A DNA stretch of 64,000 nucleotides from positions 434,001 through 498,000 of the forward strand of contig NZ_JAJTWW010000001.1 of the NCBI RefSeq assembly GCF_021729135.1. Reading direction: 5' to 3'. The notes under the pieces were generated by a model that saw only the letters and a list, made by a program, of their open reading frames with translations, did not search any database and had not been told where the DNA came from. Every line of letters begins with the position of its first letter. Positions within the stretch are counted from its first letter, which is position 1. Position numbers and translations under genes: made by a program. Source of the DNA: Brevibacterium daeguense. Lineage in GTDB: Bacteria > Actinomycetota > Actinomycetes > Actinomycetales > Brevibacteriaceae. Shown here one piece after another: positions 3,019 through 46,347 of this stretch.

Positions 3019-3567
3019 ATGACCGCATCGATCGATGTCCACAACTCGCCCTTCGCCCAGCTCAAGGACCTGCCGCGCTTCGAGCTCACCAGCACCGACA
3101 TCACCGAGGGCGCGCAGCTGACCGAGCCGCAGCTGTCCGGCAGCATGGGAGTGCCCGGTGGCCGGGACGTGTCCCCGCAGCTGTCGTGGTCGGGCTTCCC
3201 CGACGAGACCAAGGCGTTCGCCGTGACCTGCTTCGACCCCGATGCGCCCACCGGCTCCGGCTTCTGGCACTGGGTGGTCGCCGACGTGCCCGGCGACGTC
3301 ACCGAGCTGCCGACGGACGCGGGCAATCCCGAGGCCGGGCTGCTGCCCGAAGGCGCGGTGACCATGCGCAACGATGCCGGCGAGCCGCGCTTCGTCGGAG
3401 CCGCCCCGCCGGCAGGCCACGGCCCGCACCGCTACTACTTCATCGTCCACGCGCTGTCGGAGCCGCTCGGCCTCGACGACTCGGCCTCGCCCGCCTTCGT
3501 GGGCTTCAACATCTTCCACAAGTCGATCGGGCGCGCCTGGATCGAAACGAGCTACGAGGCCAAGTAA
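3019..3567 (+). CDS. YbhB/YbcL family (PEBP-like) protein
   Basis: 182 residues, similar to bacterial Raf-kinase-inhibitor/phosphatidylethanolamine-binding-like proteins (YbhB/YbcL). Recognisable features are the central SPQLSW-type strand, a [13 protein letters not shown] block that forms the anion-binding pocket, and a GPHRYYF block. There is no signal peptide, so it is probably cytoplasmic. The start is ATG with a good AGAGGAG upstream. Its cellular role is not known for most bacterial members; the position between gpsA and ddl gives no clear hint. Confidence 0.85.
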
Positions 3568-3570
3568 TCT
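3565..3570 (+). promoter_or_regulatory. -10 box of probable leaderless ddl promoter
   Basis: TAATCT followed by seven bases and then the ddl ATG. This spacing would put the transcription start on the A of the start codon. There is no Shine-Dalgarno sequence between the box and the ATG. The same layout recurs at other genes in this window. Confidence 0.5.
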
Positions 3571-3577
3571 TGGGCGC

Positions 3578-4699
3578 ATGACATCCCAGGACTCCCGCCC
3601 CCTCGTGGTCGTGCTCTTCGGCGGCCGCTCCTCCGAGCACTCCGTCAGCTGCGTGACCGCTGCCGGAGTGCTCGGCGCGATCGACACCGACAAGTACCGA
3701 GTGCTGCCGGTGGGGATCACGAGGGGCGGAACCTGGCGCTTGGTCGAGGACTGGCAGAGCTTCCGCTTCGATCCGGAGAACATGCCCGAGGTGGTGGAGG
3801 CCGGTCCCGAGGTGCTGCCTCCCGTGGCCGCCGGCCGCGCCCCGCTGCGGATGCGCAGCGCCGACGGCGAGGTCAGCGAGCTGGGTCCGGCCGATGTCTG
3901 CTTCCCCCTGCTCCACGGTCCCTACGGCGAGGACGGGACGATCCAGGGGTTCTTCGAGCTCTCGGACACCCCCTATGTGGGCTCCGGGGTGTTCGCCTCG
4001 GCGGCCAGCATGGACAAGCACTTCATGAAGATCGTGCTGCGCGCCGCCGGACTGGCCGTCTGCCCGTGGACGCTGATCACCCGCCGCGACTGGGGCACCC
4101 AGCGCGAGGATGCGCTGGAGCGGATCGGCGAGCTCGGCTTCCCCGTCTTCCTCAAGCCCGCCCGCGCCGGGTCCAGCGTCGGGGTCTCCAAGGTCGCCGA
4201 CGCCTCGGGCCTGGACCGCGCGTTCGCCCTGGCGTTCGAGCACGACAGCAAAGTCCTCGTCGAACCGGCTGTCACCGGCCGCGAGATCGAGTGCGGCGTG
4301 CTGGGCTCCCTGCACAACGAGCCCGCCCGCGCCAGCGTTCCCGGCGAGATCATCGTCACCGGCGACCACGACTTCTACGACTTCGAAGCCAAGTACCTCG
4401 ACGACGATGCAGTCGTGCTCAGCTGCCCGGCGGACCTGCCCGATGAGGTCGTCGCCCGGGTGCAGGACGCCTCGGTGCGCGCCTTCGAGGCCATGGAATG
4501 CACCGGCCTCGCCCGCGTCGACACCTTCGTCACCGCAGCGGGCGAAGTCATCATCAACGAGATCAACACGCTGCCCGGGTTCACTCCCAGCTCGATGTTC
4601 CCGCGGATGTGGCAGGCCTCCGGCGTGGACTACCCGGCTCTCGTCGAGACCCTCATCACCACGGCTCTGGCCGACTTCGCCTCCGCTCACGGGGAATGA
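3578..4699 (+). CDS. ddl: D-alanine--D-alanine ligase
   Basis: 373 residues, ATP-grasp ligase that makes the D-Ala-D-Ala dipeptide of peptidoglycan. The N-terminal glycine-rich strand FGGRSSEHSVS is at residues 13-23. The ATP-grasp block KPARAGSSVGVSKV and the metal-binding region INEINTLPGF near the C-terminus are intact. The start is the ATG at the end of a TAATCT-N7 arrangement, and no ribosome binding site is visible. It is convergent with the DUF3515 lipoprotein, the ddl-DUF3515-thiL order known from other actinobacteria. Confidence 0.95.
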   Translation: MTSQDSRPLVVVLFGGRSSEHSVSCVTAAGVLGAIDTDKYRVLPVGITRGGTWRLVEDWQSFRFDPENMPEVVEAGPEVLPPVAAGRAPLRMRSADGEVSELGPADVCFPLLHGPYGEDGTIQGFFELSDTPYVGSGVFASAASMDKHFMKIVLRAAGLAVCPWTLITRRDWGTQREDALERIGELGFPVFLKPARAGSSVGVSKVADASGLDRAFALAFEHDSKVLVEPAVTGREIECGVLGSLHNEPARASVPGEIIVTGDHDFYDFEAKYLDDDAVVLSCPADLPDEVVARVQDASVRAFEAMECTGLARVDTFVTAAGEVIINEINTLPGFTPSSMFPRMWQASGVDYPALVETLITTALADFASAHGE

Positions 4700-40201: not shown

Positions 40202-40519
40202 ATGAGTGCCGAGGACCTGGAAGACTATGAAGCCGACCTGGAGCTCCAGCTCTACCGGGAGTACCGGGATGTCGTCGGACTGTTCACCTACGTGGTGGAG
40301 ACCGAGCGCCGCTTCTACCTGGCCAACAAGGTCGATCTCAAGGCGCACCACGATTCTGGGGACGTGTACTTCGAGGTCACGCTGCGTGACGCCTGGGTCT
40401 GGGACACCTATCGGACGGCGCGCTTCGTCAAGCAGGTGCATGTGCTGACGTTCAAGGACGTCAACATCGAAGAGATCGCGAAGTCCGACCTCGAGCCGCC
40501 GTCCTCATTGCAGAAGTAG
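40202..40519 (+). CDS. DUF2469 family protein
   Basis: 105 residues. Strongly conserved actinobacterial family of unknown function, typically between rnhB and yraN. Recognised by the N-terminal MSAEDLEDYEADLELQLYRE and the central VVETERRFYLAN. Acidic, no membrane segment. The following 225 bases (40520-40744) hold no gene, only the regulatory elements listed next. Confidence 0.92.
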   Translation: MSAEDLEDYEADLELQLYREYRDVVGLFTYVVETERRFYLANKVDLKAHHDSGDVYFEVTLRDAWVWDTYRTARFVKQVHVLTFKDVNIEEIAKSDLEPPSSLQK

Positions 40520-40608
40520 TGCGCGACCGTCTTTCCGCGCGAGTCTGCGGATCGTTCTGATCCCGCCCGAATCGGATGCTTCGCATCGCTCCGTCGCTGG
40601 TCAAGCGG

Positions 40609-40624
40609 GTTACCCTACAGTAAC
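40609..40624. promoter_or_regulatory. Inverted repeat upstream of the PHA synthase operon
   Basis: GTTAC-N6-GTAAC, perfect 5-bp arms, 120 bases before the first gene of the PHA operon. A possible -10 (TATTAT, 40661-40666) follows, but no clear -35 was found. Confidence 0.4.
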
Positions 40625-40744
40625 GGTGCGTGCGGAGTCAAGTCGTTCGCTGCTTCTATGTATTATGGGAGCGGACAACCGGATGAACTGGCGGCGCAGC
40701 GACTCTGGAGTCGGCGCCGACTCTGCGAGGATGAGGATACTTGT

Positions 40745-41188
40745 ATGGCTGAGGAGCCCCGCTCGAACAATGCGCACCCGATGCGTCAGTACGTCGATGA
40801 TTTCCTCTCGGTGGCTGCCCCGGGGCTGCAGGAAGTGGTCAACTCGAAGTCCTTCGGCGCAATGGTCTCCCAGACCGCCAGCAATCTGGTCGCTGTGCAG
40901 CGGATCGGCCATGAGGTGTCGGATCTGGTCCTGCGCAATGCGCGGATTGCCGGCCGCGCGGATGTGACGTCCTTGCATCGGCAGCTCGCCCGCACCGAGG
41001 ACAAGCTCGAAGCTGTGCTCGAGACCGTCGAGCGGCTCGAGGACGAACTGGCCGATGAGCGTCGCCGGAGCACCGAGCCGACGAGCGGGTCCGCGGCTGA
41101 CGGCTCTCCGGGCGCGAAGCCCGCAGGCCGGTCCGGCCGGTCGTCGAGCAGTCCCTCGCCGCGACGAGTCGACAATCAGGGTGAGTGA
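40745..41188 (+). CDS. Possible PHA synthase partner subunit (PhaE/PhaR-like position)
   Basis: 147 residues. A helical region with heptads (LHRQLARTEDKLEAVLETVERLEDELADERRR at about 80-111) predicts a coiled coil, followed by a disordered Ser/Gly/Pro-rich tail. It overlaps the start of the class III-like PhaC by eight bases. Class III and IV synthases need a small helical partner encoded next to phaC, so this gene fits that role; sequence similarity to known PhaE/PhaR was not evident to me. Confidence 0.5.
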   Translation: MAEEPRSNNAHPMRQYVDDFLSVAAPGLQEVVNSKSFGAMVSQTASNLVAVQRIGHEVSDLVLRNARIAGRADVTSLHRQLARTEDKLEAVLETVERLEDELADERRRSTEPTSGSAADGSPGAKPAGRSGRSSSSPSPRRVDNQGE

Positions 41189-42296
41189 CGAAGTGCGGTC
41201 GCTGCTCAGGAATATGATCACTCTGCCCTCCGCGCTCGCCGAGTACACGAATATCTGGCTCACCACCCCCGAGGCAGTCGTCGGCGCCACACCGAAAGAG
41301 GTGGTCTGGACATATCGGAAGACCACTCTCTACCGGTATCGGAGCAGCCGACGGTCGCACGCTGTGCCCATCCTGCTGACCTTCGCACTCATCAATCGTC
41401 CTGACATCTTCGACCTGCGCCCGGGAAACTCCTTCATCGAGTTCCTGCTGGAGGAGGGTTTCGATGTCTTCCTCGTCGACTGGGGGTATCCCGACGAGGA
41501 GGACGCCGACACGGGACTGGACGACTACGTTCTCGAGCATCTCCCGAGGGCGATCAGGAAGGTGCTCCGAACCAGCGGCGCCGAGGAGATCACCTTGGTC
41601 GGCTGGTGCATCGGTGCTGCCCTCACCGGGATGTACCTGGGCGTGACTCCGGATGCGCCGGTGCGCAACTGGGTGCCGTTGACGATGCCGTTCGACGCTT
41701 CCAACACCACCTACCAGACATTGCTCGACAACGACGAGATGGACGTCGAGTGGCTGGCCCAGCGAACGGGGTATTTGCCGGGTGCCCACGTCGACACGGT
41801 CAACAAGCTGCTGAAGCCGGTGCCCAACTTCGTGGGGACGCCATTGCGGCTGTTCCGCGAGGTCCAGGACGGCACGGCCGACAAGATCGCGTATCAGTCG
41901 ATGTCCAAGTGGGTGGCCGACAACCCGAATTTTCCGATGCGGGCATTCCGCCAGTGGGTGACCTGGATCTACCAGGAGAATCGGCTGGCCACTGGGCGGC
42001 TGCGCCTCCGCGGGCACCGGGTGGACCTGTCCAGCATTCAGCAGTCGACTCTCGTGGTGACCGCCAGCAACGACCACATCGCGCCGCGTGACGGCACCGT
42101 GCCGCTGTTCGACGTCCTCACCACCCAGGATCTCGAACATCTCGACGGCGTCGGCGGTCACATCGGGCTGATGGCCGGTTCCCGAGCCCGGAGAGACATC
42201 TGGCCTCGCATCCGTGACTGGCTCGCGCCCCGCAGCCACGAGCGCCGACCGAGCAGCACCAGGAGTGAGACACCGGTGACGGGAAGGATGGCATGA
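41181..42296 (+). CDS. phaC: Poly(3-hydroxyalkanoate) synthase, class III-like
   Basis: 371 residues. Alpha/beta hydrolase with lipase-like box GWCIG, nucleophile Cys143; Asp298 (SNDHI) and His327 (GGHIGL) complete the triad. The numbers are close to Cys149/Asp302/His331 of the class III enzyme of Allochromatium. Polymerises hydroxyacyl-CoA on the granule surface. GTG start overlapping the upstream gene; the stop overlaps phaB. Confidence 0.85.
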   Translation: MSDEVRSLLRNMITLPSALAEYTNIWLTTPEAVVGATPKEVVWTYRKTTLYRYRSSRRSHAVPILLTFALINRPDIFDLRPGNSFIEFLLEEGFDVFLVDWGYPDEEDADTGLDDYVLEHLPRAIRKVLRTSGAEEITLVGWCIGAALTGMYLGVTPDAPVRNWVPLTMPFDASNTTYQTLLDNDEMDVEWLAQRTGYLPGAHVDTVNKLLKPVPNFVGTPLRLFREVQDGTADKIAYQSMSKWVADNPNFPMRAFRQWVTWIYQENRLATGRLRLRGHRVDLSSIQQSTLVVTASNDHIAPRDGTVPLFDVLTTQDLEHLDGVGGHIGLMAGSRARRDIWPRIRDWLAPRSHERRPSSTRSETPVTGRMA

Positions 42297-43111
42297 TGCC
42301 ACAGCAGGCAGCAGGACCCAAAGGCAGCAAGCTGGCCGGCCGTGTCGCCCTGGTCACCGGAGGCACCCGCGGTATCGGTGCAGCGATCAGCCGGAGCCTG
42401 GCCGCTCAGGGCGCCGATGTGGCGCTGGGCTACGGACGTGACCGTGAGCGCGCCCGACAGTTCCGCGACGAGTTGCAGGCGCAGTTCCCGGGAGCGACAT
42501 TCACCCTGCATCAGGGCAATGTCGGCGTGTCCACGGAGGCACGCGAGACGGTCGCAGGCGTCGTCGAGGAACACGGCAAGTTGGACATCCTCGTGAACAA
42601 TGCCGGCATCACGCGTGACCGGACCGTGCTGAAGATGGAGGACTGCGACTGGGATGACGTCCTGCAGGTCAACCTCTCGGGCACGTTCTACATGGCGCAG
42701 GCAGGCCTCAAGCACATGCTGGAGCGAGGCACGGGGCGCATCATCAATGTGTCCTCGATCATCGGGGAGATGGGCAATATCGGCCAGGCCAATTACGCCG
42801 CCTCCAAGTCCGGGCTGTTCGGACTGACCAAGACCCTGGCCCGCGAGGCGATGTTCCATCTGGACCGCGCCGGCAAGCTGAACGACGACTCGATCGGACT
42901 CACCGTCAATACGGTCACCCCGGGTTACGTGAATACCGAGATGGTCGAGGCAGTTCCGGAGAAAGTGCTCGAGAAGATCAAAGGCAGGATCCCGATGGCC
43001 CGGTTGGCCAATCCGGACGAGATCGCCAGGGTCGTGCATTTCCTGTGCGCCGACAAATCCTCCTACATCACCGGCCAGATCTGGGGCGTCAACGGCGGCA
43101 TGGACATGTGA
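42293..43111 (+). CDS. phaB: Acetoacetyl-CoA reductase (SDR family)
   Basis: 272 residues. Rossmann motif TGGTRGIG near residue 22, NNAG, and the Ser-Tyr-Lys triad (SSIIG...YAASKSG). Reduces acetoacetyl-CoA to (R)-3-hydroxybutyryl-CoA, the PHB monomer. The ATG overlaps the phaC stop by four bases. The role is inferred from the adjoining synthase and phasin; FabG-like activity is the alternative. A short insert (HLDRAGKLNDDS) precedes the substrate loop. Confidence 0.82.
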   Translation: MMPQQAAGPKGSKLAGRVALVTGGTRGIGAAISRSLAAQGADVALGYGRDRERARQFRDELQAQFPGATFTLHQGNVGVSTEARETVAGVVEEHGKLDILVNNAGITRDRTVLKMEDCDWDDVLQVNLSGTFYMAQAGLKHMLERGTGRIINVSSIIGEMGNIGQANYAASKSGLFGLTKTLAREAMFHLDRAGKLNDDSIGLTVNTVTPGYVNTEMVEAVPEKVLEKIKGRIPMARLANPDEIARVVHFLCADKSSYITGQIWGVNGGMDM

Positions 43112-43136
43112 CGTGAAGCAGCGGCCGAGCTGTCGG

Positions 43137-43165
43137 TTGACGAGTTAGCAGAATCTTGCTAACTT
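43137..43165 (+). promoter_or_regulatory. Phasin promoter with operator in the spacer
   Basis: TTGACG (43137-43142), 17 bases, TAACTT (43160-43165). The inverted repeat GTTAGCA-N6-TGCTAAC at 43144-43163 fills the spacer and enters the -10. GTTAAC at 43168-43173 repeats the core. This is the classic arrangement for repression of a phasin gene until granules appear. Confidence 0.65.
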
Positions 43166-43229
43166 TAGTTAACACCGGCAGTTGCACACTGTCGCTGAAG
43201 AATACCCCAGAGACTTTAAGGAGTCATCC

Positions 43230-43592
43230 ATGACTGCCAACCCGAACCCCGAGAGCAACGCCGGCAAGCCCAACTTCAACAGGTCCAAGGAGAGCGCGGA
43301 CAAGGTGACCCAGGATGCTGCCAAGATGGTTGAGGAAGCCACCAAGCGTTTCGAGGAGAGCACCGAGCGGATGAAGGAATTCACCTCCGCGATGATGGAA
43401 TCATCCAAGACCAGCGGCCGTGTGGTCGTCGACAACTACGAGACCGCCGCCAACAGCATCTTCTCGATGCAGCGTGAGATGGCCGGAACCAGCCAGGTCG
43501 ACTGGGTTCGCGACACCGCGAACACCCAGATCCAGTTCGCCGAGGAAGTCACCGGGGCCTGGGTCAAGGCAGCGCGCGAACTGCTGAAGTGA
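43230..43592 (+). CDS. phaP: Phasin-like granule-associated protein
   Basis: 120 residues, helical and amphipathic with many Lys/Glu and few aromatics (KESADKVTQDAAKMVEEATKRFEE), resembling phasins that coat PHA granules. ATG with TAAGGAG upstream. It has its own regulated promoter and a strong terminator, so it can be expressed more highly than its neighbours, as expected for a coat protein. Confidence 0.75.
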   Translation: MTANPNPESNAGKPNFNRSKESADKVTQDAAKMVEEATKRFEESTERMKEFTSAMMESSKTSGRVVVDNYETAANSIFSMQREMAGTSQVDWVRDTANTQIQFAEEVTGAWVKAARELLK

Positions 43593-43634
43593 CAGGCGGA
43601 GTCTCGTACTCGACGCCTGGGTAGACTGCGTAGG

Positions 43635-43664
43635 ACGGTCCCGCCGAAGTTTCGGCGGGACCGT
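43635..43664 (+). terminator. Terminator after phasin gene
   Basis: 13-bp perfect stem (43635-43647 with 43652-43664), loop AGTT, then TCGTCTTG. It isolates the phasin transcript from the hydrolase gene; a possible new -10 TACAAT is at 43698-43703. Confidence 0.8.
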
Positions 43665-43770
43665 TCGTCTTGCCCTCGCCTGAGCCGTTATTGCCGCTAC
43701 AATAAGCCGAACGACGTGAAACGCGTCGTCGATCAGGGCGCGAAGTGTGCCCCGTCCAGCAGGAGGACAT

Positions 43771-45276
43771 GTGCGCGACTCACACTCACCCACCAGCTCG
43801 TCCGGGATATTCGACTCCTTGGTGTCTGCCACGGTCGGGGCCTGGACAGCATACAGCACGGCCACGATCGACTACTGGTGGGGGGCAGTGAGGAGGGGGG
43901 CGACTCCTCTGGACCTGGCGTCTGATCTGATGTCCTGGTCGATCACGATGTCCGACCGGAAGCGTCCGGAATGGGCGCATGAGAACCGTGTGATCAAGGA
44001 ATGGCCGCTTGCACGGCTGCGCGACTACTCGGCCCCGGACGCGGACCCCGATATGATCGCGACGGTCATTCTGCCTCCGCAGGCCGGGCACGATTCGAGC
44101 ATCATCGACTTCACCGCAGACCAGAGCCAGGTGGTGGTCGGCCGTGAAAGCGGGTGTCACCGGATATATTGCCTCGACTGGATCGGCGCGACTCAGGAGA
44201 CCAAGGACGCCGGAATCGACGACTACATGGCAATCCTGCGTGAGACCGCCGAACTGCTGGGTGGCAAGGTCAATCTCGTCGGTGATTGCCAGGGCGGCTG
44301 GACCGCAACCATCTTCACCGCTCTCTATCCCGAGCGGGTCAACACCCTGGCCATCGCCGGGGCGCCGATCGACTTCCATGCCGGCGAGCCGCTGATCCGC
44401 GACTGGGTGGATGCAATCGCCCCGGGCGGCGACATGACCATCTACCGTTCCGTGGTCGAGGCCAACAACGGGGTGCTGCCGGGCCGGTTCCTGCTCGACG
44501 GATTCAAGGCACTGCAGCCGGATCAGGAGTTCAGCCGGTCGATTCAGCTGCTGGCCAATCTGCACGATGCCGAGCACGTGGAGCGCTATCGGCAGTTCGA
44601 GGACTGGTTCCAGTGGACCCAGGCGCTGCCGGGCGTGTTCTACCTCTGGGTCGTCGAGCACCTGTTCATCCGCAATTCGCTGATCAAGGGCGAATTGGTC
44701 GTCGAGGGCCGCATTGTCGACCTGGCGGCGATCGAGTGCCCGCTGTTCCTGATGGCGGGACAGACCGATCACATCACGCCGGCCGACCAGGTGTGGGCAC
44801 TGGCTGATTACGCGTCGACTCCTGCCTCGATGATCGGACGCCAGTCCTCGACCGGCGGTCACCTCGGCCTCTTCATGGGCCATGAATCGCTGCGGAATCA
44901 TTGGCAGGTGATCTTCAAGGAGATGGCCGGCCTGTCCACGCCGACCCCGGACGATGACCCCGAGGTGCTCACCGACGAACCGTCACAGCCAGTCGCGTCC
45001 AAGGCGACTTCTGCCCGGAAGACTCCTCGCAGGAAGTCTGCGGACGTGAAACCTGCTGCCGTCAGCAAGCCCGCCGAGGAAGCCCCGGATGCCGAGGCGG
45101 CAGCCACACGGATTTCGACGACCAGGGTGCCCGCCAAGCGGACGCCGACCGAGGAGAGTGCTGCGTCGCCGAAGCCGAAGCCACCTGCCGTGGGGTCCGT
45201 CGGTGCCGCGGAGTCGGCGACGGGCATTCGCCGGCAGACCTCTCCGGTCGAAGAGCCCCGGAGTCACGAGGACTGA
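43771..45276 (+). CDS. Second Cys-nucleophile PHA (de)polymerase-like hydrolase with basic tail
   Basis: 501 residues. Alpha/beta hydrolase with GDCQG box, nucleophile Cys173; Asp333 (GQTDHI) and His364 (GGHLGL) complete the triad. This fits either a PHA synthase homologue or an intracellular depolymerase/DUF3141-like enzyme; I cannot decide. Residues from about 400 form a disordered Lys/Arg/Pro/Ala-rich tail reminiscent of DNA-binding tails of PHA-granule proteins such as PhaF/PhaM. GTG start chosen for AGGAGG six bases upstream. Confidence 0.7.
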   Translation: MRDSHSPTSSSGIFDSLVSATVGAWTAYSTATIDYWWGAVRRGATPLDLASDLMSWSITMSDRKRPEWAHENRVIKEWPLARLRDYSAPDADPDMIATVILPPQAGHDSSIIDFTADQSQVVVGRESGCHRIYCLDWIGATQETKDAGIDDYMAILRETAELLGGKVNLVGDCQGGWTATIFTALYPERVNTLAIAGAPIDFHAGEPLIRDWVDAIAPGGDMTIYRSVVEANNGVLPGRFLLDGFKALQPDQEFSRSIQLLANLHDAEHVERYRQFEDWFQWTQALPGVFYLWVVEHLFIRNSLIKGELVVEGRIVDLAAIECPLFLMAGQTDHITPADQVWALADYASTPASMIGRQSSTGGHLGLFMGHESLRNHWQVIFKEMAGLSTPTPDDDPEVLTDEPSQPVASKATSARKTPRRKSADVKPAAVSKPAEEAPDAEAAATRISTTRVPAKRTPTEESAASPKPKPPAVGSVGAAESATGIRRQTSPVEEPRSHED

Positions 45277-45320
45277 TCCGCTGAAAGGACGGGCTGCGCG
45301 TTTGGAGTACCGTCTGCCGC

Positions 45321-45360
45321 CTGACTGACGCCCTGCAAGCCCGTGTGGGGAGTCAGTCAG
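45321..45360. terminator. Possible bidirectional terminator
   Basis: CTGACTGAC (45321-45329) and GTCAGTCAG (45352-45360), 22-base loop, in the 80-bp gap between the convergent hydrolase and XRE genes; the right arm includes the XRE stop. Confidence 0.45.
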
Positions 45361-45797
45361 CTGATTCCCGTGTCGGTGTCCTGCTCGTCGTCTTCAGCCG
45401 GACGATCCCGAGTCGTGCGGTCCTGGTTGTCGTCCTGAGCCGCGGCATCGGTCGTCCGGTTCCCGTCATTGGCGCGGACGAATGATCGGTAGATCTCTGC
45501 GAGGGAAGCCTGCTGGGCGGGCGTGAGCTCGGCGGCGTTCTCGATGGCCTCCAGCAGATCCGAGCGTTCGTCGCCGGAGTCGTAGCGAGCATGGAACTCC
45601 TCGACGCTGATCCCCAGGGCAGAGGCGATACCGGCAGCGACCGCCTCGGAGGGAGACCGCAGCCCCCGCTCGATCTGTGACAGGTACGGGTTGGAGATCC
45701 CGACCATCGCAGACACCTGGCGCATCGACAGATCCGCCAGCTTCCGCTGCTGGCGGATATAGGCTCCCATGAGATTGCGCTGTTCTCGGCTGACCAT
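45357..45797 (-). CDS. XRE-family transcriptional regulator
   Basis: 146 residues. N-terminal HTH_3 domain (LGAYIRQQRKLADLSMRQVS-like helix pair, then ISNPYLSQIERGLRSPS). C-terminal third is an acidic disordered tail (DNQDRTTRDRPAEDDEQD). Similar short XRE proteins accompany phasin/HBHA-like genes in mycobacteria. It may be the repressor of the phasin promoter, an inference from position. The ATG lies six bases after a TAGAAT -10, so its mRNA is probably leaderless. Confidence 0.8.
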   Translation of the reverse strand: MVSREQRNLMGAYIRQQRKLADLSMRQVSAMVGISNPYLSQIERGLRSPSEAVAAGIASALGISVEEFHARYDSGDERSDLLEAIENAAELTPAQQASLAEIYRSFVRANDGNRTTDAAAQDDNQDRTTRDRPAEDDEQDTDTGIS

Positions 45798-45803
45798 GGA
45801 CTC

Positions 45804-45809
45804 ATTCTA
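45804..45809 (-). promoter_or_regulatory. -10 box of probable leaderless XRE promoter
   Basis: Reads TAGAAT on the minus strand, six bases before the ATG of the XRE gene. Confidence 0.55.
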
Positions 45810-45919
45810 CGACCGGCGCTGCTGAGGATGAGCGGAGGGGCCGGCCGACGAGTGGTCACAGCCGCTCATGGCCGATGCTCGACAGCAGTGGAAGAACCGT
45901 CATCGGGAGAATGCCCGCG

Positions 45920-45947
45920 CTGTGGACAGGGAGCCGGTCGTCCACAG
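45920..45947. promoter_or_regulatory. 8-bp inverted repeat between XRE gene and yraN
   Basis: CTGTGGAC (45920-45927), 12 bases, GTCCACAG (45940-45947). It lies in the divergent spacer; nothing else is recognisable in these 199 bases. Confidence 0.4.
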
Positions 45948-45996
45948 TGAGGCCACGAGTGATGTCTCGGGGTGCCGTCGGTGATTGTCTCGGGGC

Positions 45997-46347
45997 ATGG
46001 ACACGAAGACACTGGGCCGCCGGGGCGAGCTGATCGCCGTCGAGCACCTGATCGATCAGGGCTGGGAGATCATCGCGACCAACTGGCGCTGCCGCCATGG
46101 AGAGATCGACGTGATCGCCGACGACGGGGACTCGCTCGTCTTCGTCGAGGTCAAGACGCGGACGAGCGCACGCGCCGGTCACCCGCTCGAAGCGGTCACG
46201 GCAGGGAAGATCGCGACGATGCGCGGTCTCGCCCTGCGCTGGCTGGCCGAGCAGCCGGAGTGGATTCCGCGGTTCCGGATCGACGTCATCGGAATCCTGT
46301 GGAATGGCGGCCGGCCGGAGATCTCCCATGTCCGCGATGCGCGATGA
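45997..46347 (+). CDS. yraN: UPF0102 (YraN) nuclease-like protein
   Basis: 116 residues. PD-(D/E)XK-like core: GRRGELIAVEHL, then EIDVIADDGDSLVFVEVKTR, with acidic residues in nuclease spacing. Function unproven. First of yraN-comM-dprA, a natural-competence related trio. ATG at 45997; the stop overlaps comM. Confidence 0.9.
   Translation: MDTKTLGRRGELIAVEHLIDQGWEIIATNWRCRHGEIDVIADDGDSLVFVEVKTRTSARAGHPLEAVTAGKIATMRGLALRWLAEQPEWIPRFRIDVIGILWNGGRPEISHVRDAR

Follow-up and report, generated by a model that had tools for sequence, protein, structure and literature searches.

A putative PHA-granule depolymerase of Brevibacterium with a disordered C-terminal arm, a possible nucleoid tether in two branches of its family

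Introduction

Can an enzyme that degrades a PHA granule also hold that granule to the chromosome? The question is raised by a gene in the window, by which we mean the whole 64-kb stretch of Brevibacterium daeguense DNA analyzed here, whose product joins an alpha/beta hydrolase core to a long C-terminal extension. A sequence-only reading had described a triad enzyme with a basic, DNA-binding-like tail and had regarded an enzyme that tethers granule to chromosome as a novelty. A review names PhaM, PhaF, and PhaH as PHA tethers, all of them from proteobacteria (PMC13052382; this and the other publications are cited from excerpts of their text). We propose that the protein is a PHA-granule depolymerase with a disordered arm that may have been elaborated into a nucleoid tether in two branches of its family; judged from sequence, this reading as a whole has about an even chance of being right.

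Results and Discussion

The Hydrolase Gene Closes a PHA Cluster

The hydrolase is the final gene of a cluster that runs PhaE-like, PhaC, reductase, phasin, and hydrolase on the forward strand, followed by an XRE-type regulator on the reverse strand (Table 1), and the PHA-cluster setting of the earlier reading is thereby confirmed. The PhaE-like protein matches no family model above its cut-off, and the uncertain start of PhaC probably lies downstream of 41055. A promoter scan of positions 40400-46000 returned 1 site against 0.9 expected, and a terminator scan of the same region 0 sites against 2.2 expected. The hairpin upstream of the hydrolase gene (z -3.06, computed over 43590-43720) is without a T run, which the terminator scan requires, and is missing from that scan; it could act in termination, in attenuation, or in protection of the phasin mRNA. 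We found no tRNA within the window.

The open reading frame comprises 501 codons, from the GTG at 43771 to a stop at 45274-45276. The catalytic residues Cys173 (in GDCQGG), Asp333 (in TDHI), and His364 (in GGHLG) stand at the positions previously claimed for the triad and are invariant in all 37 aligned sequences, that is, the window copy and 36 relatives. A structure model built from this alignment is confident in its catalytic part, where 10-residue blocks over residues 11-390 average pLDDT values of 74-99, and falls below 50 at residues 1-7 and 393-501.

Table 1. Features of the PHA cluster and of the hydrolase gene, in window positions
Feature	Position	Strand	Remarks
PhaE-like synthase partner	40658..41188	+	named from its place before PhaC and conservation there in relatives; start uncertain
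Class III-like PHA synthase PhaC	41055..42296	+	TIGR01836 282 bits, model cut-off 365
Short-chain reductase, acetoacetyl-CoA/3-oxoacyl reductase (PhaB-like)	42293..43111	+	
Phasin-like protein	43182..43592	+	weak Phasin_2 match, E 0.088, under cut-off
Hairpin, 15 pairs including one G-U	43633..43666	+	between phasin and hydrolase genes
Hydrolase gene	43771..45276	+	GTG start, 501 aa; DUF3141-related alpha/beta hydrolase plus C-terminal extension
Nucleophile Cys173 codon	44287..44289	+	motif VGDCQGGW
Asp333 codon	44767..44769	+	motif DHITPxxQ
His364 codon	44860..44862	+	motif GGHLGLFMG
C-terminal tail, residues 392-501	44944..45273	+	predicted disordered, net charge -1
Acidic linker ending LTDEP, residues 393-404	44947..44982	+	
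Most basic tail part, residues 405-434	44983..45072	+	net +7
XRE-type HTH regulator	45357..45797	-	relative present in 47/80 loci

Active-Site Motifs and Co-occurrence Favor a Depolymerase over a Second Synthase

The hydrolase matches the Pfam family DUF3141 (PF11339) with 88.3 bits against a gathering cut-off of 29.7, over profile positions 52-355 of 582 only, and matches Abhydrolase_1 and PHB_depo_C more weakly, again above their cut-offs; it has no phasin match at E 1. On sequence grounds, we place it in a mainly actinobacterial family related to DUF3141. In the plasmid collection, the best 60 of 268 matching records comprise one tail-less relative on a Burkholderia cenocepacia replicon (L092, 5632-6957; 38% identity over 64% of the query) and 59 rows at 32% or less.

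The PhaZ model TIGR01849 scores the hydrolase at 64 bits, below its cut-off of 301, and filing the protein under PhaZ was rejected on this score. The class III synthase model TIGR01836 scores it at 114 bits, likewise below its cut-off of 365, which is a strict one (the cluster's own PhaC reaches 282 bits, and 0 of 396 genomes of the order reach 365). We built a tree of 51 rows: 25 hydrolase, 3 PhaZ, 3 DUF3141, and 20 synthase-side rows, the latter made up of 10 class III and 9 class I synthases and one Paracoccus protein without class assignment. The synthase-side rows form a single clade with support 100/100 and the hydrolases fall outside it, so membership in class I or class III was rejected as well. 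No single branch sets the hydrolase rows apart from all others (2 changes; 6% of bootstraps); the PhaZ rows join the hydrolase rows on an open fork with a long branch of 3.28, and the three DUF3141 rows sit on a long branch of 4.17, both placings being flagged as doubtful.

The family consensus reads VGDCQGGW around the nucleophile and mostly DHITPxxQ around the aspartate. From the three PhaZ rows compared we derived the motifs Cys-Gln and D-x-I-x4-Q, the second widened from D-x-I-[TS]-x3-Q, one of the three rows having Cys there. Cys-Gln is found at the nucleophile in 25/25 hydrolase, 3/3 PhaZ, and 3/3 DUF3141 rows and in 0/20 synthase-side rows, and D-x-I-x4-Q at the aspartate in 25/25, 3/3, 3/3, and 1/20 (L073), respectively. 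PhaZ and DUF3141 thus share the Cys-Asp-His positions and both motifs with the hydrolase and differ from it in the subthreshold TIGR01849 score and in their long branches.

Several observations point instead to a second PHA synthase or a synthase-modulating subunit, whose arm would bring it to DNA and thereby place granule nucleation at the nucleoid, a model already proposed for PhaC-PhaM. The synthase model outscores the PhaZ model, both below cut-off; the DHI at the hydrolase aspartate is common to most synthases; and both of the papers on DUF3141 associate it with PHA synthases, one of them a classification that groups DUF3141 with PHA synthase and PhaZ in a different cluster (PMC11878206), with no tested function for DUF3141 in the excerpts of these papers. 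The fold closest to the model is also PhaC (Z 32.8 over 345 residues at rmsd 4.7), with lower scores for a lipase (Z 24.4) and the serine-type PHB depolymerase of Bacillus thuringiensis (Z 20.0), a comparison that is one-sided because the one Cys-type PhaZ tried, from Azospirillum, lacks any sequence relative in the PDB at E 0.01. We nevertheless regard a synthase role as unlikely, given the position outside the PhaC clade, the Cys-Gln shared with PhaZ, and the distribution of the genes: a separate synthase occurs within the fetched DNA of 49 of the 80 loci (by score limits, class III-like in 17 and class I-like in 32), and if the hydrolase were a synthase, 15 of 15 carrier genomes would be left without any PhaZ-model match. 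The remaining 31 loci show no synthase within the fetched DNA, 10 of these pieces being shorter than 10 kb. Because it lies outside the class I and III clade and a separate synthase accompanies it in 49 loci, the window hydrolase is probably not the synthase of its cluster.

At E 1e-50, 7 of the 396 genomes of the order carry the hydrolase (the window's own genome counted), and the same seven are those in which TIGR01836 reaches 260 bits or higher; 8 further genomes have weaker TIGR01836 matches only (82-183 bits) and no hydrolase at this threshold. In 15/15 genomes, picked as hydrolase carriers, the hydrolase is the sole TIGR01849 match at E 1e-10 (52-79 bits), and none of these genomes has a match above the cut-off of 301 bits. 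Since it is the only PhaZ-like match in all of them, we infer that the hydrolase is most likely an intracellular PHA depolymerase, ahead of the synthase reading. Its fold, triad residues, cluster, family, and co-occurrence with synthases are given by sequence or model, and it most likely acts at the granule surface, most likely by hydrolysis. The secreted-type PHB esterase model TIGR01840, considered as an alternative depolymerase, hits 7 of the 15 carrier genomes at E 1e-10, 4 of them above its cut-off, and does not hit the window's own genome. In a strain of a different species, Brevibacterium casei, PHB accumulates and later declines slightly (PMC4149260).

The Tail of the Window Copy Is Probably Disordered and Is Close to Neutral

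An extension of about 100 residues had been noted in this protein, and some 110 residues are indeed present, with no Pfam match at E 0.1; because pLDDT is below 50 over residues 393-501, the model suggests that they probably form a disordered arm. The Lys/Arg-basic character ascribed to this tail is not borne out: residues 392-501 hold 17 K+R against 18 D+E, a net charge of -1. The charge is distributed in two parts, with net -6 over residues 387-404 through LTDEP and then +5 over the next 97 residues, of which the first 30 carry the +7 listed in Table 1. Compared with the last 110 residues of each of 51 window genes called by a codon-composition rule, the net charge of the hydrolase is ordinary, and its most basic 30-residue stretch ties for 2nd to 5th place. 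Its K/R/P/A/S/T content of 68% is the highest among the 18 genes listed, the other 17 having at most 47%.

Since an acidic linker is followed by only a weakly basic segment, any tether function of the window copy would be reduced, different, or absent, and from its sequence we put the chance of such a function here at about one quarter.

Long Basic Tails Appear in Two Branches of the Family

We surveyed tail length in 83 members: the 80 loci, minus L047, L068, L072, and L074 (incomplete) and L063 (a near-copy of L062), together with six new members, one Burkholderia row, and the window, duplicate loci being dropped. The loci come from a search with six peptide patterns, one of which (KPAEEAPD) is from the window's own tail and could favor tailed relatives; the genome searches of the order and of the relatives of L038 used tail-free queries. 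Tails range from 3 to 252 residues, with 49/83 at 15 or fewer, 22/83 at 16-44, and 12/83 at 45 or more; the tails of L006 and L038 run off their contigs, so that their lengths are minima. As tails are shorter than 45 residues in 71 of the 83 members, the arm is dispensable for the main function of the family.

Net charge reaches at least +10 in 7 of the 12 tails of 45 or more residues. Strongly basic tails, rich in Ala-Lys-Pro, 69-252 aa long and with net charges of +13 to +30, occur in 7/83 members (L005, L038, L105, L106, L108, L109, and L112). In five single-contig genomes the tails measure 203 aa (+25), 69 aa (+13), 252 aa (+29), 154 aa (+20), and 192 aa (+13), and contain stretches such as KKAPAKKAPAKKAP and KAKPAVKAKPVAKAKP. 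The proposed likeness to the DNA-binding tails of PhaF and PhaM therefore fails for the window copy, which is neutral and passes neither of the Ala-Lys-Pro scans described below, strict or relaxed, and survives in the sequences of these seven relatives. At E 0.1, Pfam finds the histone H1-like family HC2 on the L005 tail (E 0.00048, below cut-off) and nothing on the tails of L116, L117, and L038; the yeast repeat family DUF963 exceeds its cut-off on the L114 tail, which we took as a composition match.

On the tree, long tails amount to three changes, and the least-change reading is two gains and one loss. The first gain falls on a branch of six (L038, L056 from Kribbia, and four genomes of one family), all beside class I-like synthases; the second falls on a branch of seven beside class III-like synthases, consisting of the window copy, two Micrococcus MAGs, two Citricoccus, B. 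yomogidense, and G514, with a long tail in 6/7. Both branches have support 100/98. The apparent loss is in L009 (Citricoccus sp. CH26A), which looks tail-less and whose reading frame seems shifted near its end, so one of the three changes is possibly a sequencing error. A query with L038, chosen because its own protein has a tail, matched 10 of 186 genomes searched, and 7 of the 10, one of them L038's own, have tails of at least 45 residues.

Ala-Lys-Pro Segments Lie on Granule-Cluster Proteins within PHA Loci

Tails of this composition might equally be functionless low-complexity extensions, in which Ala/Pro/Lys stretches grow through slippage of GC-rich repeats and composition drifts. The wide range of tail lengths and the neutral charge of the window tail would suit such an origin, as would the DNA tandem repeats present in both of the Ala-Lys-Pro tails checked. 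We therefore asked how specific the segments are. A strict scan (40-residue segments, each with no fewer than 7 Lys, 70% Ala/Lys/Pro/Thr, and net +6) matched 7 of 6012 six-frame reading frames of at least 100 codons from the window and 91 loci, in which the window's own gene region is counted repeatedly (L001, L002, and L084); one match is a phasin, and the other six are hydrolase tails, of which three belong to a single B. yomogidense gene. In nine PHA neighborhoods the strict scan matched 6 of 879 frames, all hydrolase tails, and in 11 control stretches (220 kb) elsewhere in two of the same genomes it matched 0 of 1133.

We further applied a relaxed scan to the identified cluster proteins of 89 sources, with limits set after L015 had been seen, so that its counts are descriptive. 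Among hydrolase frames it matched 10 of 90, with one gene entering twice; it also matched 1 of 17 PhaE proteins and 1 of 37 phasins, and none of 64 synthases, 66 reductases, and 55 XRE proteins. Never did a source hold two arm bearers, and 77 of the 89 hold none. In L015, a Kineosporiaceae MAG, PhaE carries a 74-residue basic tail of net +13 (gene match 2616-2912), and the hydrolase tail has 10 residues. In L008 (Enemella dayhoffiae), a second phasin at 3271-3924, directly upstream of PhaE, has an N-terminal Ala-Lys-Pro arm, and the hydrolase tail has only 30 residues.

Against functionless extension stand the empty control frames, the restriction of the segments within PHA loci to granule-cluster proteins, the two gains on the same protein under the least-change reading, and the LTDEP linker. 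This linker was compared in seven rows, six from the window copy's branch (L009 left out) and L008, which lies just outside that branch; five rows retain it, and L005 and L008 do not. We consider functionless extension a possibility, on the doubtful side. A tether could leave such traces as repeated gain, confinement to cluster proteins, and no more than one bearer in a locus, for which neutral growth of repeats is a poorer explanation. Loci that lack a bearer are numerous, and granules there would have to be tethered by something else or not at all.

A Possible Tether and Its Nearest Published Relatives

The mechanism that we propose would start with a cytoplasmic cysteine alpha/beta hydrolase serving the PHA granule made by the neighboring PhaE-PhaC, in which Cys173, activated by His364 and Asp333, would attack the polyester bond. 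The C-terminal extension would form a disordered arm, elaborated in two branches into an Ala-Lys-Pro, histone H1-like arm through which the enzyme, itself bound to the granule, might be attached to the nucleoid or to polyphosphate, and granules would then be held and partitioned through their own degrading enzyme. For the strongly basic relatives, their sequences would put the chance of a tether function at about one half; a granule-nucleoid tether may thus be a reasonable proposal for part of the family, though a weak one as regards the window copy. A broader version is offered only tentatively and would be wrong more often than right. In it, part of the Actinobacteria would tether PHA granules to the nucleoid by an Ala-Lys-Pro arm that moves between proteins and is not one fixed protein: the hydrolase would have received this arm on two or more occasions, and a phasin or PhaE in other loci, with one bearer per bearer-locus, and the arm would couple partition to turnover where it sits on the hydrolase.

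The nearest published idea, as far as the excerpts go, is the PhaC2 synthase of Cobetia, whose extended basic C-terminus was proposed from sequence to bind granules to DNA and carries AAKP in some strains, with unspecific HC2 hits (PMC8686332). Cobetia PhaC2 and our family have in common that the tail of a PHA enzyme is long, disordered, and of high pI and gives HC2 hits (in our family on L005, below cut-off). Cobetia PhaC2 is a class I synthase, whereas the protein studied here is a depolymerase-like actinobacterial hydrolase that falls outside the PhaC clade and whose family acquired long tails twice if changes are kept to a minimum. The newness once claimed for an enzyme tethering granule to chromosome is thus reduced by the Cobetia proposal and may persist for a depolymerase-like bearer: in the open-access literature searched we found neither such a bearer nor movement of the arm between proteins, nor, at the level of titles, a PHA depolymerase with a histone-like tail.

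Judged from sequence, the tails of the relatives are Ala-Lys-Pro-rich like those of PhaF, AlgP, and histone H1. The arm of PhaF from Pseudomonas putida is histone-like, has AAKP-like repeats, and is disordered on its own (PMC3574117, PMC5658603); PhaF is a phasin with a PHA-binding helix, in contrast to the alpha/beta hydrolase and the non-basic window tail described here. PhaM of Cupriavidus necator and PhaH of Caulobacter each bind granule and nucleoid in one protein, as we propose, but are not described in the excerpt as enzymes of the polymer, and PhaH acts via a helix-hairpin-helix (PMC13052382). AlgP of Pseudomonas aeruginosa has a KPAA tail, similar to the arm of the relatives, that is needed for even spacing of polyphosphate granules (PMC9239181); unlike the hydrolase, it is not an enzyme of the polymer.

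The AlgP case also suggests that the basic arm of the relatives might bind polyphosphate or another polyanion, or drive condensation, and not bind DNA. The isolate name of L038 may, as a guess, mean activated sludge, where polyphosphate storage is common, which would fit. However, AlgP is itself called DNA-binding (PMC9239181), and the lysine-rich tails of PhaF and of the Rhodococcus lipid-droplet protein MLDS bind DNA (PMC5658603, PMC5504291), so that we hold a target other than DNA to be improbable, the most so of the alternatives weighed here. Returning to the nucleoid tether, some actinobacteria may pin PHA granules to the chromosome via the probable degrading enzyme. Such a depolymerase-like bearer would link the sharing of granules between daughters to their spending, and if the arm was gained repeatedly, selection would seem to act on the arm itself. 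Irrespective of the arm, the hydrolase family is a candidate for the unassigned intracellular depolymerase in PHA clusters of actinobacteria, and PHA biotechnology in these hosts has a gap at this point.

The Cluster Is Patchily Distributed in Brevibacterium

The PHA cluster (window positions 40520-45984) is flanked by a DUF2469 gene and yraN. Of six other Brevibacterium genomes inspected, five have these two genes side by side and cluster-free; in the sixth (G019), yraN was not found and there is only a short stretch at that place. Among the five is B. yomogidense (G054), the second carrier in the genus, whose cluster lies on a different contig. At E 1e-20, 2 of 60 genomes of the family carry the hydrolase, the window's own genome counted. 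Because of this patchy occurrence and of the DUF2469-yraN adjacency elsewhere in the genus, we infer that the cluster is probably a horizontally acquired insertion in the Brevibacterium chromosome.

The XRE-type regulator at the end of the cluster finds a counterpart in the MLDS/MLDSR system of Rhodococcus jostii. MLDS is an actinobacterial storage-inclusion protein with a Lys-rich DNA-binding C-terminus, its operon holds an XRE-type regulator (PMC5504291), and it serves lipid droplets, not PHA. The XRE proteins are alike in type, and by analogy the window's regulator is possibly akin to MLDSR, the regulator of MLDS.
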